DNA of 64,000 nt from Clostridiales bacterium (GTDB lineage Bacteria > Bacillota > Clostridia > Oscillospirales > Oscillospiraceae), in the NCBI GenBank assembly GCA_022785125.1, contig JALFRA010000042.1:1-64000 (forward strand), in the 5' to 3' direction. A model generated the notes under the pieces. That model saw nothing but the letters and a program-made list of their open reading frames with translations. It had not been told where the DNA came from and ran no database searches. Positions 5,689 through 10,550 of the stretch are shown piece after piece (within the stretch, counting starts at the first letter, position 1; every line of letters begins with the position of its first letter). A program made the translations under genes and the position numbers.

Positions 5689-5877
5689 TTACTGCTTATT
5701 TCCTTTTTTAGCTGATTTGGATATGGCACGAATCCCCTTTAGGGCACCGACAATGAACCAAAACTCGCTCTGCTGTTTCCAAAGTTGATTCACCCGTCCC
5801 GTAGTTTCACCTTTATGACCACACGCACCACGGAAATGAGGCTCTGCCCCCATTGGTGGGCAGAGCCTCATTTCCAC
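5689..5877 (-). other. 62-codon frame of uncertain coding status, possibly part of a dispersed element
   Basis: The 338 bases between bcd and queG hold this frame, which starts inside the queG stop-codon hairpin and ends KSAKKGNKQ. It overlaps the queG end by 10 bases and has no ribosome-binding site. The central part (NQLWKQQSEFWFIVGALKGI) reads like translated non-coding repeat rather than a folded domain. I do not recognise a family. It may be the transcribed edge of a lineage-specific intergenic repeat. No second copy is visible in this window. Confidence 0.25.
5832..5875 (-). terminator. 18-bp stem hairpin over the queG stop codon
   Basis: The arms GGAAATGAGGCTCTGCCC and its perfect complement are separated by 8 bases. 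The queG stop codon lies inside one arm. There is no T run after it on the minus strand, so termination is uncertain. It could be an mRNA 3'-end or stability element. Confidence 0.5.
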
Positions 5878-6686
5878 TCCAGATTGCGCCGCAGGGGGGC
5901 GGGCCCCCGCCAGGCAAAGGCCCGGTCGCCGTACTTCTCCCGGAAGGTCCGGTTGGTGAGTCCCTCCAGGTCGGCCCGGTCCAGGGTATCCACCAGTCCC
6001 TCTCGAAACTCAGGCAGAGGGGATAGGGCGGGATGGGCGTTGTAAGGGCACACCCGCTGGCAGGTATCGCACCCCCAGATCAGGGAGTGGGCCTTCACCA
6101 GAGCCTCCTCTTCCCCGGTCAGCTCCCCTTTCTTCTGGGTCAGTTCGGACAGACAGCGGGACAGGTCCACCCCATTCTCCCCCAGAGCGCCGCCGGGGCA
6201 GGCGCTCAGACACTTGCCGCAGCCCACACAGTTGGCGGACGGAGTGCGGGGCGGCAGGTCCAACTCCACGTCGGTAAGGATGGTGCCCAGGAACACATAG
6301 CTGCCGTAGGGGGGCAAAATCATCAGACCGTTTTTCCCTCGCAGGCCGATGCCGCACCGCCAGGCCGCCTGCCGTTCCGGCAGAGGGGAGTTGTCGGCGG
6401 CAGGCAAAAACGCCCTATTTTCGTATTTATCTCGCAAAATATCACAGATCGTATTCAGCTTTTCGGTGACGGCCTGATGATAATCCCGCCCCCGGGCGTA
6501 GAGGGACAGGTTTCCGGGCCGGTCCCCGGCGTAGTAGGGGAAGGCGGCCACCAGCACGGTGCGGGGATTGGGGCACAGCTGTTCTGCCTTTGCGATGGCC
6601 TCGGGGGTCATGTCCTCCGCCAGTTCTGAAAACGGCAAGCCGCCCCAGGCGGCGGCGCCTGCGGCGGCAAAAGCCTTATTCAGCAT
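5868..6686 (-). CDS. queG: Epoxyqueuosine reductase QueG
   Basis: A 272-residue protein, short for QueG (often 300-380) but with both parts. The N-terminal DUF1730-type domain has the segment DNSPLPERQAAW...GKNGLMI at about 98-123. The C-terminal ferredoxin-like part has two 4Fe-4S motifs, CVGCGKCLSAC (153-163) and CDTCQRVC (206-213). QueG is a cobalamin-dependent enzyme that makes queuosine in tRNA, cytoplasmic. The ATG at 6686 overlaps the Mur-ligase stop by 11 bases, indicating translational coupling. A cobalamin transporter with a B12 riboswitch is found later in the window. Confidence 0.88.
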   Translation of the reverse strand: MLNKAFAAAGAAAWGGLPFSELAEDMTPEAIAKAEQLCPNPRTVLVAAFPYYAGDRPGNLSLYARGRDYHQAVTEKLNTICDILRDKYENRAFLPAADNSPLPERQAAWRCGIGLRGKNGLMILPPYGSYVFLGTILTDVELDLPPRTPSANCVGCGKCLSACPGGALGENGVDLSRCLSELTQKKGELTGEEEALVKAHSLIWGCDTCQRVCPYNAHPALSPLPEFREGLVDTLDRADLEGLTNRTFREKYGDRAFAWRGPAPLRRNLEWK

Positions 6687-8208
6687 GGTCACGATCGTAC
6701 TTGTCCAGGGCCTGCCGGGCCAGCACCCCGTCGGGGATGCAGGGCTCGGGGCCGTTCTTCCGCTTCTGGAAGATCTCGCAGCCCTTGCCCGCCAGCAGCA
6801 CCACGGCGGGGCGCTGGGCCTCCAGGATGGCGGTCTCCACCGCCCGCTCCCGGTTAGGAATGACGGTGTAGTCCTTGTTCCATCGCTTGAGGAACACGCC
6901 GATGTCGGCACAGATGTCCTCCACCTCCTCGGGGCCGGGATCGTCCTCGGTGAGGATGACCCGGTGGGCCCACTCACCGGCGGCATTGCCCATGCCCTCC
7001 CGGCGGTCGATGCCCTTGCCGCCGGTGCAGCCGAAAAGCACCGTCAGCTGCCGGTCGGGATACTCCGTCCGGACGGACCGCAGGGCGTTCTGCAAGCTCA
7101 TGCCGTTGTGGGAGTAGTCCACAATGACGGAGATCTGGTTGTCGGCGCTGACATAGTGCTCCATACGGCCGGGGACGAAAGCATTCACCAGACCCTCTTC
7201 CACCGTCTTTTGGGGGATGCCGTAGGCCTCGGCCACCGCCACAGCGGCCAGAGCGTTCTCCACGTTGAACAGGCCGGGGGTGGAGATGGCCAGCTCTCCC
7301 TCGTACCGGGGGGTACGGACGTGAAAGGCGATCTGGTTCCCCTCCTTGCGGACGTTGGTGCCGTATACCGCGGCGGCGGGGTCCTTCTGGGAGAAGGTAA
7401 TGACCTTCTCACACCGGGCGGCGGCCTGGGCCACCTCAGGGGCGTGATCGCAGTCCATGGAAATACAGGCAGTTTTCGCCTGCCGGAAAATCAACAGTTT
7501 GGATTGGAGATAGTCCTCCAGATCGGGGTGCTCCACCGGGGAGATGTGGTCCTCGCCGATGTTGAGGAATACGGCGCAGGACAGGTCCACTCCGATGACC
7601 CGGCCATACTTCAGGGCCTGGGAGGATACCTCCATGGTGAGGTAGTCCGCCCCGGCGGTGACTGCATTGGACAGGTGTCGCTGCAGGTCCAGGGGCTCCG
7701 GGGTGGTCAGCTTGGCGGTTTTGCGCTCCAGGCCGTCGTCGGTGACGATAGTGGAGAGCAAGGCGCTCTCCCGGTGGCCCTGGGCAGCCAGCCAGGTGTC
7801 CACGATGGACTTGATATAGTAGGCCGTGGTAGTCTTGCCCTTGGTGCCGGTGATGCCGGTGATGGTCAGCTTGCCGGAGGGGTGGCCGTAGGCCAGATCG
7901 GCCAGCAGGCCCATGGCCTGCCGGATGTCGGTGACCCGCAGGCAGGGCAGGGGCACGTCGGGATAGGGGATCTCGCTGACATACACGAAGGCACCCTTGT
8001 CCATGGCCTGGCGCAGGTAGTCCTCCTTGAACTTGGCCCCCTTGCAGAGGAAGAGGGTATGGGGAATCACCACCTGGGAGTCGCAGGACACCAGGGCCAC
8101 CGGGGCAGTCAGGTCGGCGTGAACCGGCCCCTTGTCGGCCAGCAGGTCATGGCGCAGCAGCAGCTGCACATAGTCGCCCAGAGGGCGGCGGAAATCGGTC
8201 ATAGTCAT
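6676..8208 (-). CDS. MurE-like Mur ligase family protein
   Basis: A 510-residue Mur ligase. It has the N-terminal UDP-binding-type domain, the ATP P-loop ITGTKGKTTT at about 119-128, the EVSSQAL strand and the C-terminal ligase domain. MurE joins a diamino acid to UDP-MurNAc-Ala-Glu. In canonical MurE the diamino-acid pocket has DNPR (mDAP) or DNPA (Lys). Here the equivalent block reads TEDDPGPEE, so substrate specificity cannot be assumed. VDYSHNGMSL replaces the usual DYAHTPD. Two in-frame ATGs (8208 and 8202) are possible starts. It is located in a cluster with a racemase and a D-aspartate-ligase-like ATP-grasp enzyme. It could be the cell's MurE or a paralogue for a special peptide. Confidence 0.82.
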   Translation of the reverse strand: MTMTDFRRPLGDYVQLLLRHDLLADKGPVHADLTAPVALVSCDSQVVIPHTLFLCKGAKFKEDYLRQAMDKGAFVYVSEIPYPDVPLPCLRVTDIRQAMGLLADLAYGHPSGKLTITGITGTKGKTTTAYYIKSIVDTWLAAQGHRESALLSTIVTDDGLERKTAKLTTPEPLDLQRHLSNAVTAGADYLTMEVSSQALKYGRVIGVDLSCAVFLNIGEDHISPVEHPDLEDYLQSKLLIFRQAKTACISMDCDHAPEVAQAAARCEKVITFSQKDPAAAVYGTNVRKEGNQIAFHVRTPRYEGELAISTPGLFNVENALAAVAVAEAYGIPQKTVEEGLVNAFVPGRMEHYVSADNQISVIVDYSHNGMSLQNALRSVRTEYPDRQLTVLFGCTGGKGIDRREGMGNAAGEWAHRVILTEDDPGPEEVEDICADIGVFLKRWNKDYTVIPNRERAVETAILEAQRPAVVLLAGKGCEIFQKRKNGPEPCIPDGVLARQALDKYDRDHAE

Positions 8209-8227
8209 TCACCACCAGAAACTTGTA

Positions 8228-8249
8228 GGGCCGATGTCGCCATCGGCCC
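8228..8249. repeat. Intergenic hairpin, short relative of the GTAGGGG repeat
   Basis: GGGCCGATG and its complement are separated by TCGC, preceded by TGTA. It lies in the 46 bases between the racemase stop and the Mur ligase start. It resembles the GTAGGGGCG repeats at 10587, 15280, 36890 and 41997. Confidence 0.6.
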
Positions 8250-8254
8250 ATTGC

Positions 8255-8959
8255 TTATACCATCCGCAGCTTGTAGCCGCAGGCGGTGATACACCGCTGA
8301 GCCAGCACGTCCATAGCGTCCAGATAGTGGTCGGGCAGGCCGTGATAGGTGCGGTAGACACTCAGCTCGGTGCAGCCCAGAATGGCGCTGTCGCACCCGG
8401 CCTGACGGAGCCAGCGGTCAATGACGGCGAATTTCTCCCGGGAGCCCTTTTCCCCCCGCTTGATCTCGTCGTAGATGATGCACATCACCAGCTTCTGGAC
8501 CTCATCCGGAGGAGAGACGGCCTCAATGCCCCGGGCGGTACACTCCTTCTGATACACGCCGGTGCGGATGGTGCCGTCGGTGGCCAGGATGCCCACCTTG
8601 CGCCGCCCCTCCTCCGCCAGCACCCCCACGGTCTCCCGGGGCATATGGATGAGAGGGATGGAGATATCCCCCTGAAGCCGATCGGCAAAGTAGTGGGAGG
8701 TGTTGCAGGGAATGGCCAGCACAGTGCAGCCGCCCCCCTCCAGCAGACGGGCTCCCGAGAGCAGACGCCGGTAGCAGCCCTCCGCGTCGCCCCCCAGAAT
8801 GGCGGCGGTGCGGTCGGGCATGGAGGTGTCGCTCCAGATCAGGGTGGGCAGGTGCTCCTGGTCGCAGGAGGCGTCGGTGCGGTCCAGAATCCGCTGATAA
8901 AAGTCCTGGGTGGCCTGGGGCCCCATGCCGCCCAAGATGCCAAGTCGTTGTTCAGGCAT
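8255..8959 (-). CDS. Aspartate/glutamate racemase family protein
   Basis: A 234-residue cofactor-independent racemase. The two catalytic cysteines are in AIPCNTSH (C85) and ILGCTELS (C196), both intact, and the start LGILGGMGP is typical of the family. It would interconvert L- and D-aspartate (or glutamate). The ATG at 8959 follows AGGAGGTGGCGAT. Upstream lies a degenerate second copy of its own first 12 codons. Beside a D-aspartate-ligase-like ATP-grasp enzyme it most plausibly supplies D-Asp. Glutamate or another substrate cannot be excluded. Confidence 0.88.
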   Translation of the reverse strand: MPEQRLGILGGMGPQATQDFYQRILDRTDASCDQEHLPTLIWSDTSMPDRTAAILGGDAEGCYRRLLSGARLLEGGGCTVLAIPCNTSHYFADRLQGDISIPLIHMPRETVGVLAEEGRRKVGILATDGTIRTGVYQKECTARGIEAVSPPDEVQKLVMCIIYDEIKRGEKGSREKFAVIDRWLRQAGCDSAILGCTELSVYRTYHGLPDHYLDAMDVLAQRCITACGYKLRMV

Positions 8960-9137
8960 ATCGCCACCTCCTGCCATATTCCGGCATGGGGCCCCTACAA
9001 GCGTTTTGGCCGCAGGCCAAAACCTTGGTGCCGGGGCAATTCACTTGCCCCGAGCAGATCCAATCACCGGGGTCCCCGCACGGCGCAAGCCGGGTGGGGC
9101 GGCCCATGCCGCCCAGAATGCCAAAGCGTTGTTCCAT
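8952..9137 (-). pseudogene. Remnant of the racemase 5' end interrupted by repeat sequence
   Basis: Starting at 9137, in a TAATG overlap with the ATP-grasp stop, the frame reads MEQRFGILGGMG. This closely parallels MPEQRLGILGGMG of the intact racemase 178 bases downstream. After codon 12 the homology stops and the frame passes through palindromic filler (two hairpins at about 9004-9024 and 9033-9053, GTAGGGGC at about 8990) before ending at 8952. It looks like a partial duplication or repeat insertion at the start of the racemase gene. Confidence 0.75.
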
Positions 9138-10348
9138 TATTTCACCTTTTCCATACAAGAGGCGTACCAGCCCACATAGCGGCGCTGGCCCTTCAGGATG
9201 CGCAGGGTACGCACCAGGCCGTTGTCCGGCTTATAGAACAGGGGGTTGACCACGGCGTTGGCCTTTTCCAGCGCCTTCATCTCCTGGTGGTACCGGAGAT
9301 TCACATAGTCATAGGCCACCTTGGGGGGAATGACCCACCATAGATGGCGGTTGCGGGTAATGGTCAGCTCACAGTCCCTGCCCAACACCCGGTCCTCCAC
9401 CAGGTACTTGGCCAGATTGTAGCCCGCCCCGGTGACATAGTAGTTGGACCGGCCCTGGCGGCAGTTGATCTCAAAGGCCTTGAACTTGCCGTCCCGCTGG
9501 TCGTACTTGATATCAAAGTTGGAGAAGCCGGTGAAGTGGATGGCCTCCAGGAAGTCTTTCAGCTTCTCGCACAGCTCGGGCTCGGGCTCGGTGATGATGA
9601 CGGCGTGGTTGCCGATGGCGTGGGCGGTGTGCTCCTCCAGCAGGACGTGGCCCACGCACATGAGGCGCACCTTGCCGTCGGCGCCGGAGTAGTTGGTCAC
9701 CACCCGCATGAAACTGTCGTCACCAGGGATAAAGTCCTGGATGATGAGGGAGTCCTCATATCCGGCGTTGTAGATATCGTCAATGACCTGGTCCACTTCC
9801 TCCCGAGTCTGGAGGACGTAGGCCTTCTTCTGAGTGGGGAAGGGATGCTTCCAGTAGGTATCCGACTCGGCGGGCTTGACCACAAAGGGGCCATCAAAAG
9901 GCAGGGTAAAGCCGTGGCCCTCCCCCTTGTGGTAGACGTAGGTGGCCGGATGGTCGATGCCGTACTGGTCGCACAGGTCGTAGAACTTCTCCTTGTGGAT
10001 CAGGGTCTCCAGCATGGACAGGTCCACATAGGGAGCGATGACGTTCTCCGGGTAGTTGGGCAGGTTGGCGGAAATGGAGTTGAGGTAGTTGTCTCCGCAG
10101 CCCAGCACCAAAATCTTCTTGTCCGGGTGCTCACGGGCCACCTCGGTGACGTTCTCCAGCACCTTGTCCACCCGGTCGTTGTGCTCCCGTACCCGGTAGT
10201 CGATGATCTTGCTGCCGGCGCACACGCTGGCGGGAAACATTCCATACACCACGGAATGTACGCCGTAGGCCTCGTGGAAGGCCCGGGCCATGCTGTAGGC
10301 GTTGATGTCCGAGCCCAGCAGCACGGGCACAAATTCAGTTGCAGCCAT
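9137..10348 (-). CDS. ATP-grasp ligase, D-aspartate ligase-like
   Basis: A 403-residue ATP-grasp protein. It starts with PVLLGSDINAYSMARAFHE, has a VLGCGDNYLN strand at about 81-90, the ATP-lysine block FVVKPAESDTYW (about 155-166), IIQDFIPGDDSFMRV, and the metal-binding FEINCRQGRS near residue 305. This pattern recalls the enterococcal/lactococcal D-aspartate ligase (Asl) that adds D-Asp to the peptidoglycan stem peptide; the match is from memory, not a search. The ATG at 10348 follows CCAGGAGGCATTTTAC. It overlaps the upstream 71-aa gene by 14 bases and is followed by racemase and Mur ligase genes, supporting a peptide-ligation pathway. Confidence 0.8.
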   Translation of the reverse strand: MAATEFVPVLLGSDINAYSMARAFHEAYGVHSVVYGMFPASVCAGSKIIDYRVREHNDRVDKVLENVTEVAREHPDKKILVLGCGDNYLNSISANLPNYPENVIAPYVDLSMLETLIHKEKFYDLCDQYGIDHPATYVYHKGEGHGFTLPFDGPFVVKPAESDTYWKHPFPTQKKAYVLQTREEVDQVIDDIYNAGYEDSLIIQDFIPGDDSFMRVVTNYSGADGKVRLMCVGHVLLEEHTAHAIGNHAVIITEPEPELCEKLKDFLEAIHFTGFSNFDIKYDQRDGKFKAFEINCRQGRSNYYVTGAGYNLAKYLVEDRVLGRDCELTITRNRHLWWVIPPKVAYDYVNLRYHQEMKALEKANAVVNPLFYKPDNGLVRTLRILKGQRRYVGWYASCMEKVK

Positions 10349-10550
10349 TGTAAAATGCCTCCTGGAAGGTAATTTCATACCAATGTTCGCCCATGGGAAT
10401 GACCTGGGCGCAATAATGTCCCGCCACATAGGCGGCCTGGGCCTCGGTAAGCCGCAGCTCCCGCCGGAGCAGCTCTCCGCCCGCAAAGCACTGGGAGATC
10501 AGCCGGTCCAGGATCTCGTTTTCTTGCAGTATCTCTCTCTGAATCATCAT
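10335..10550 (-). CDS. 71-residue protein, unknown, first gene of the ligase-racemase cluster
   Basis: Small acidic, helical N-terminal half followed by a strand-rich end (CAQVIPMGEHWYEITFQEAFYNG). It starts with two adjacent ATGs at 10550 and 10547 after AGGAGAACG. It overlaps the ATP-grasp start by 14 bases, so the two are likely translated together. There is no signal peptide or membrane segment. I do not recognise the family with certainty. Its fixed position ahead of the ATP-grasp enzyme suggests an accessory protein for it. Confidence 0.75.
   Translation of the reverse strand: MMIQREILQENEILDRLISQCFAGGELLRRELRLTEAQAAYVAGHYCAQVIPMGEHWYEITFQEAFYNGCN

Follow-up and report, generated by a model that had tools for sequence, protein, structure and literature searches.

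The window analysed here, a stretch of 64,000 nucleotides from contig JALFRA010000042.1 of a Clostridiales bacterium in the family Oscillospiraceae (assembly GCA_022785125.1), a Flavonifractor-like organism of the gut, contains a compact gene set whose predicted products are an AslA-like ATP-grasp ligase, an amino-acid racemase, a Mur ligase that we call MurE2 and a 71-amino-acid (aa) protein (Table 1). An earlier reading of this DNA from its letters alone, hereafter the sequence-only reading, had placed four minus-strand genes here, with a 14-base overlap. Our reading of the frames, all four intact and together spanning 6676-10550, bore out both points, the overlap being between the ATP-grasp gene and the 71-aa gene.

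Table 1. Position and assignment of the features of the gene set in the window (DAP, diaminopimelate; MurNAc, N-acetylmuramic acid)
Feature	Position	Strand	Basis or remark
71-aa protein	10335..10550	(-)	small conserved family, directly upstream of ligase gene; intact frame
AslA-like ATP-grasp ligase (P0002), 403 aa, predicted D-aspartate ligase	9137..10348	(-)	frame, relatives and model
61-codon frame: first 12 racemase codons repeated, then extra DNA	8952..9137	(-)	sequence reading
Two-cysteine amino-acid racemase (P0003), predicted aspartate racemase	8255..8959	(-)	profiles, cysteines, structure match
MurE2 (P0001), 510 aa, non-DAP-type UDP-MurNAc-tripeptide synthetase, predicted L-Lys-adding	6676..8208	(-)	profile, clade, motif

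Ligase, racemase and a second MurE

The ATP-grasp protein is predicted to be an AslA-like D-aspartate (D-Asp) ligase. In a review, AslA is the ATP-grasp enzyme by which D-Asp is added to L-Lys, its gene lying in the racD operon of L. lactis; the same review assigns the amidation to AsnH and lists L. fermentum as a species with ornithine (PMC4155827). The window protein had no Pfam family over cut-off and no sequence match in the PDB at E <= 1. Its structural model (predicted local distance difference test score, pLDDT, 91) matched ATP-grasp folds at E of about 1e-13 to 1e-16. The top match was PylC in complex with lysine, and another PylC entry among the fold matches contains the lysine-D-ornithine product. 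PylC (PDB 4ffl, 4ffm), which couples D-ornithine to lysine at its side-chain amine, resembles the ligase in fold and in forming an isopeptide bond to that amine, but is only 14% identical to it, uses free lysine and belongs to the pyrrolysine pathway. The metal motif noticed earlier is present as FEIN, and its residues E293 and N295 are invariant in 25 aligned ligases (alignment A1, 25 of 36 family ligases).

The AslA assignment was made by comparison with lactobacillar relatives annotated as carboxylate-amine ligase or hypothetical protein. Three of these, from L. crispatus, L. fermentum and L. curvatus in a plasmid collection, are 33-38% identical to the window ligase and nest among the clostridial ligases in a tree of 42 hand-picked rows; 42 of the 50 residues invariant in the 25 clostridial ligases are kept in all three. 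The L. crispatus gene adjoins asnB and the L. curvatus gene adjoins a racemase gene. This kinship supports the D-Asp-ligase-like character proposed in the sequence-only reading, and a grouping with unrelated carboxylate-amine ligases, tested for, was not found.

The racemase matched PF01177 (Asp_Glu_race) at 130.6 bits and scored 208.6 bits on the asp_race profile TIGR00035 (cut-off 93.1) and 211.3 bits on the profile of the cysteate racemase CuyB (cut-off 190). Both cysteines are intact, in PCNTS and GCTEL, and with the domain and the TIGR00035 score they confirm the identification as an Asp/Glu racemase. Its closest solved structure is the aspartate racemase 1jfl, and the homologue beside the L. 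curvatus ligase is 38% identical.

MurE2 scored 319.4 bits on TIGR01085 murE (cut-off 257.3) and contains PF08245 and PF02875. Among six Mur-ligase matches in the genome, three others were read by eye as MurF, MurD and MurC, and a separate MurE with the motif DNPR, 33% identical to MurE2, reached 561 bits on a DAP-adding equivalog (cut-off 373). MurE2 is thus not the genome's principal murE, and the lack of any other murE, which would have told against the sequence-only reading, was not borne out. In a tree of 43 hand-picked rows, MurE2 fell into a clade with full support (100/100) together with the L-Lys MurE of E. faecalis, a Collinsella MurE, a Vescimonas MurE and the sole MurE of genome G234, apart from 16 DNPR enzymes. 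The window enzyme carries DDPG in place of DNPR/DNPA, as noted before, with Gly replacing the Arg of DNPR. DDPG is also the motif of the L. curvatus MurE; E. faecalis has DDPA and Collinsella EDPA. In the S. aureus MurE, the lysine amine is bound by the first motif Asp together with a second Glu, and there is no counterpart of the DNPR Arg that binds the second DAP carboxylate (PMC3829189). We compiled the motif in 87 MurE2 rows with near-duplicates, which collapsed to 82 at 97% identity. None of the 80 with a readable motif has Arg at the fourth position; of the canonical MurE, 28 were fetched, and all read DNPR except one fragment (27 of 28). MurE2 shares reaction type and domain layout with canonical meso-DAP MurE (E. 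coli, Bacillus, the genome's second murE), but differs from it at the Arg position and in clade. With the L-Lys MurE of Enterococcus and Latilactobacillus it shares the DDPA/DDPG motif and, for E. faecalis, the clade; unlike them, it lies far under the L-Lys equivalog cut-off, is a second MurE, and is in part of its relatives fused to an ArgB-like kinase. Because DDPG is also the motif of a lactobacillar MurE, lysine or ornithine is the predicted third residue of the stem and D-Asp the predicted bridge.

Other MurE-like proteins were seen in the course of this work. In Vescimonas fastidiosa (L232, NZ_AP023416), an Oscillospiraceae MurE near the L-Lys-type clade, on a long branch, lies beside pgeF and thyA. 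A third MurE-like kind, with neither DNPR nor the GKG-E motif, is found in L211 (G173), L222 and L224 (G154), L223 (G302) and L225 (G201). The genomes concerned hold a ligase homologue, and in G173 the third kind is the only MurE match.

The 71-aa protein had no Pfam or NCBIfam match, and a fold search with its model, of modest confidence (pLDDT 75), gave no good match (best E 0.53). When 115 stretches upstream of the ligase (duplicates among them) were scanned with a profile of the family, 37 gave a match. F22, R33, L34 and W57 are invariant in an 18-row alignment, and one copy each was present in 14 of 16 same-genus genomes; the protein was not found in nine other genomes of the order. It is a conserved, cluster-linked family, and as a guess it might act with the ligase as a regulator or scaffold. 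We rejected a LysW-type carrier biosynthesis with the 71-aa protein as carrier: the alignment shows no conserved acidic C-terminus, and the clustered neighbours inspected included no reductase, aminotransferase or hydrolase of that pathway.

Conservation, kinase fusion and the sporulation marker

We surveyed a family sample of 150 genomes, in which MurE2 was called at >=42% identity to the window protein, and scanned named genomes, which yielded at least 588 ligase relatives (594 stretches); the best 80 were kept as named loci. The ligase had a strong match in 36 of the 150 family genomes and a weak one in 2 further genomes. Among the 36 family ligase loci, the window included, 30 had the racemase and 26 the Mur ligase, several loci without one or the other being cut by contig ends; some of the named loci were also short. 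The order ligase-racemase-MurE2 on one strand recurred in 51 of the best 80 named loci. These frequencies indicate that the arrangement is more than chance. At the level of whole genomes, MurE2 was present in 32 of the 36 ligase-bearing family members and in 0 of the 114 others, where the best match reached 37%. In three long-contig genomes (G064, G068 and G116) MurE2 lies apart from the ligase, in G116 by about 8.5 kb and on the opposite strand, so that the link between ligase and MurE2 is not one of neighbourhood alone. The best 80 include Flavonifractor, Pseudoflavonifractor, Intestinimonas, Evtepia, Clostridium paraputrificum, C. aminobutyricum, Sinanaerobacter, Bacilliculturomica and many metagenome-assembled genomes (MAGs). 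Across 299 genomes of the wider phylum the ligase (E <= 1e-40) was found in just 9, two of which are the window genome and a member of its family.

Fusion of MurE2 to a C-terminal ArgB-like (N-acetylglutamate kinase) domain that passes the argB cut-off was seen in 12 family genomes and in an example from the named genomes. All 11 fused rows of a MurE2 alignment (A2, 23 of 26 MurE2) keep the kinase signatures KYGGSA, GYRVT, NADD and GGM-PK. That the fused kinase is simply the genome's argB was dropped as an explanation: 11 of the 12 genomes also have a stand-alone ArgB that scores over cut-off, G037 being the exception. A literature search on MurE fused to an N-acetylglutamate-kinase domain found no paper. 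In the 82-row motif set, rows with the E-D motif comprised 23 fused, 22 unfused and 8 with a kinase remnant; rows with the D-D motif, that of the window lineage, comprised 26 unfused and 1 with a remnant, and in 2 (L133, L156) the pattern was unread. Fusion and motif were associated (Fisher 1e-5, without correction for kinship). The fusion hints at ornithine, and since a longer acid would reach a shorter amine and the kinase belongs to the ornithine pathway, the pattern suggests, as a hypothesis, that E-D enzymes add ornithine and D-D enzymes lysine. Separately, MurE2 proteins of 633-747 aa with a shortened or decayed kinase occur in L055, L111, L112, L114, L122, L123, L135, L152 and L155, as if the ArgB-like domain were in the course of being lost.

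The two MurE types differ in their relation to the sporulation marker SpoIVA. In G234 (98% complete), where a MurE2-type enzyme is the sole MurE match, SpoIVA was missing, as expected beforehand, and in G338 and G226, which have both types, it was present. We then compared 35 genomes from the best 80 named loci, chosen for spread, none dropped and their completeness unknown. Seven had a single MurE (E <= 1e-30, at the MurE2 level), among them G490 (L157), MurE2-only by score with its motif not read, and 28 had two. No SpoIVA match was found in 6 of the 7, and one was present in 25 of the 28. Combined with the three genomes above, SpoIVA was missing in 7 of 8 MurE2-only genomes, whereas 27 of the 30 genomes that have both types possess it (Fisher 7e-5, kinship not corrected). 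A MurE2 tree of 41 hand-picked rows, with the E. faecalis and L. curvatus MurE as outgroup, required at least 4 changes of the MurE2-only state on well-supported branches, which shows that this state is not confined to one lineage.

The same pattern was seen in seven near-complete genomes (93-100% complete) outside the family that carry ligase homologues: DNPR MurE and SpoIVA were both present in G338, G226, G154 and G201 and both missing in G234, G302 and G173, G302 having two short sub-cut-off SpoIVA matches only. Within the family sample SpoIVA was found in 29 of 32 MurE2 genomes, the three exceptions having a completeness of no more than 73%, and in 125 of all 150, so that SpoIVA alone is no predictor of the cluster. 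The samples were chosen for the ligase and cannot show genomes that lost MurE2 instead. Within this scope the DNPR MurE follows SpoIVA, and relatives seemingly unable to sporulate tend to keep only the MurE2-type set.

A predicted D-Asp branch of wall synthesis and its alternatives

We consider it probable that the cluster is an accessory branch of peptidoglycan-precursor synthesis of the A4 type (Lys/Orn-D-Asp), and we propose MurE2 as wholly or partly vegetative and the DNPR MurE as serving the spore. The homologies of the enzymes, the conservation of the set, the clade and motif of MurE2, the presence of two MurE types and the association of DNPR MurE with SpoIVA are what the analysis shows, and they point this way; the wall chemistry, the exact third residue, the division of labour between the two MurE and any role of the 71-aa protein are inferred. 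The racemase would make D-Asp, a shared MurF would complete the pentapeptide, and the ATP-grasp ligase would link D-Asp through its beta-carboxylate to the Lys or Orn side-chain amine, so that the wall would be D-Asp-bridged like that of lactobacilli. The DNPR MurE would be needed for the spore (cortex), and MurE2 would serve, or share in, the vegetative wall. Three points are telling: DDPG is a MurE motif known from lactic acid bacteria, an organism of the meso-DAP type carries the set as an extra, and the meso-DAP enzyme follows the sporulation marker. The sequence-only reading had identified the enzymes correctly and had rightly suspected D-Asp in an altered wall peptide; nothing seen points to the soluble peptide it had offered instead.

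A close comparison is with the lactobacillar D-Asp system, whose ATP-grasp ligase and racemase are homologous to those of the window, with adjoining genes in L. curvatus too, and which has a MurE with DDPG. In Lactobacillales, however, Lys or Orn is the main stem residue, whereas the window set brings its own MurE2 and small protein in hosts that also keep a DNPR MurE. Lysinibacillus (Bacillus) sphaericus has a Lys-D-Asp vegetative wall, a meso-DAP cortex and two MurE activities. It thus resembles the window organism in having two MurE types and forming spores, with a D-Asp bridge, predicted in the window organism, on the non-DAP type, but it belongs to another class and is not known to have an ArgB fusion; for the window organism such a pair of walls is predicted from gene content, the DNPR MurE tracking SpoIVA. 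On this model, a division of labour in time between the two MurE stands slightly short of an even chance. More tentative still is the broader possibility that many spore-forming gut clostridia, Flavonifractor, Pseudoflavonifractor, Evtepia, Clostridium paraputrificum and others among them, build a D-Asp-bridged L-Lys/L-Orn vegetative wall and a meso-DAP spore wall, with kinase-fused MurE2 fed with ornithine and the D-D, kinase-less Flavonifractor branch using lysine.

Several observations weigh against an accessory Lys/Orn-D-Asp branch with a spore-dedicated DNPR MurE. MurE2 reaches no equivalog cut-off, that for L-Lys (NF010628) included (345.4 vs 536 bits). Four ligase-bearing family genomes (G005, G071, G115 and G121) lack MurE2, which shows that the ligase can exist without it; their ligases are only 37-41% alike, and DNPR MurE was found in the three with a MurE read. 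G480, with MurE2 alone, has a partial SpoIVA, and G496, G503 and G504 have both MurE and no SpoIVA match; incomplete MAGs with missing genes can also mimic a joint loss of DNPR MurE and SpoIVA. Deinococcus proteolyticus, an L-Orn species, was tried as a reference and set aside: its MurE motif, TEADHR, has no E-D and gives no support to E-D as the mark of ornithine. Collinsella was set aside in the same role, its putative ornithine wall type finding no confirmation in the searches made. Nor did the literature searched yield a description of the wall in any species with the cluster. The window genome's DNPR murE, moreover, lies in the main wall cluster, next to genes for a SpoVD-like penicillin-binding protein, mraY, ftsW/spoVE-like, murG and murA, where a housekeeping murE is expected. 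This location, together with the sharing of one genome by both MurE types, is what one would expect if the vegetative wall were mainly the work of the DNPR MurE, with MurE2, ligase and racemase contributing a minor or stress-induced Lys/Orn(D-Asp) fraction whose subunits change cross-linking or hydrolase resistance. We regard such a mixed or conditional wall as unlikely: MurE2 is the sole MurE found in G234 and seven further genomes and must make the whole wall there, and DNPR MurE tracks SpoIVA.

Racemase specificity is ambiguous, the protein passing Asp-type and cysteate-racemase cut-offs alike, and the annotation of the lactobacillar relatives goes no further than carboxylate-amine ligase or hypothetical protein. 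Both would fit a ligase that adds D-Glu, D-cysteate or an L-amino acid to Lys or Orn, with the racemase serving that substrate. The 42 invariant residues shared with the three lactobacillar ligases make this improbable, since the genera concerned are described as D-Asp-bridged (PMC4155827). A product outside the wall, in which MurE2 and the ligase build a soluble peptide or polymer, is very improbable. The pairing of ATP-grasp and Mur ligase recalls cyanophycin synthetase, and the kinase fusion in some genera could be read in the same way; but the cyanophycin profile matched weakly (76 bits vs a cut-off of 850) and MurE2 exceeds the murE subfamily cut-off, on which grounds cyanophycin-like synthesis was dropped. 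In addition, MurE2 is the sole MurE found in some genomes, and neighbour clustering gave, apart from the cluster genes and the RelA, M16 peptidase, QueG-like and Alr-like genes, no conserved export or tailoring gene.

Few descriptions exist of the wall chemistry in these gut genera. In a review table, the wall type is blank for Oscillibacter and Ruminococcus and meso-DAP for Faecalibacterium (PMC11382707). If the accessory-branch reading is true, wall fragments of Flavonifractor-like cells would, by the ligand rules of these receptors, be weak ligands of NOD1 but could still feed NOD2, and endolysins picked for meso-DAP walls would be mismatched to such cells. According to a review, it is unknown why lysine is used in some species and DAP in others (PMC4015370). 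Organisms with two MurE, one of which is missing where the sporulation marker is missing, make this question testable. A fusion of MurE with N-acetylglutamate kinase would physically link amino-acid supply to wall chemistry.

Gene junctions and neighbouring genes

The sequence-only reading had also coupled ligase and racemase through TAATG. This motif exists, at 9139-9135, but opens the 61-codon frame and not the full racemase, whose start is the ATG at 8959; the TGA of the 61-codon frame overlaps that start, ATGCCTGA. After its 12 repeated racemase codons, the frame runs through about 180 bp of extra DNA. This DNA is absent in Flavonifractor sp. An112 (L079), Flavonifractor sp. AGMB03687 (L081) and L080, and in L079 and L081 TAATG directly opens the racemase. 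Similar extra DNA lies at the same place in L083/L084 (Pseudoflavonifractor phocaeensis An507, F. plautii), and L085, a composite, may be a third case. Racemase and Mur ligase genes do not overlap and are separated by 46 bp.

Besides the cluster genes, RelA, M16 peptidase, QueG-like and Alr-like genes adjoin parts of the set. In L070 (G080) and L071 (G034) MurE2 lies directly upstream of a divergent ligase, overlapping or abutting it, with no racemase in the locus. An Alr-like gene is found directly upstream of the ligase in L060 (G027) and 19 of the best 80 named loci, for example L109, L120 and L151. The L060 protein scored 113 bits (alr cut-off 168) and, by eye, lacks the pyridoxal phosphate lysine shown by the L194 alanine racemase; it is perhaps a catalytically dead homologue. 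In the window, a short QueG-like gene (5868-6686, 272 aa), whose product falls below the QueG equivalog cut-off (162 vs 200 bits), shares 11 bases with the end of the Mur ligase gene; it adjoins the cluster in only part of the relatives.

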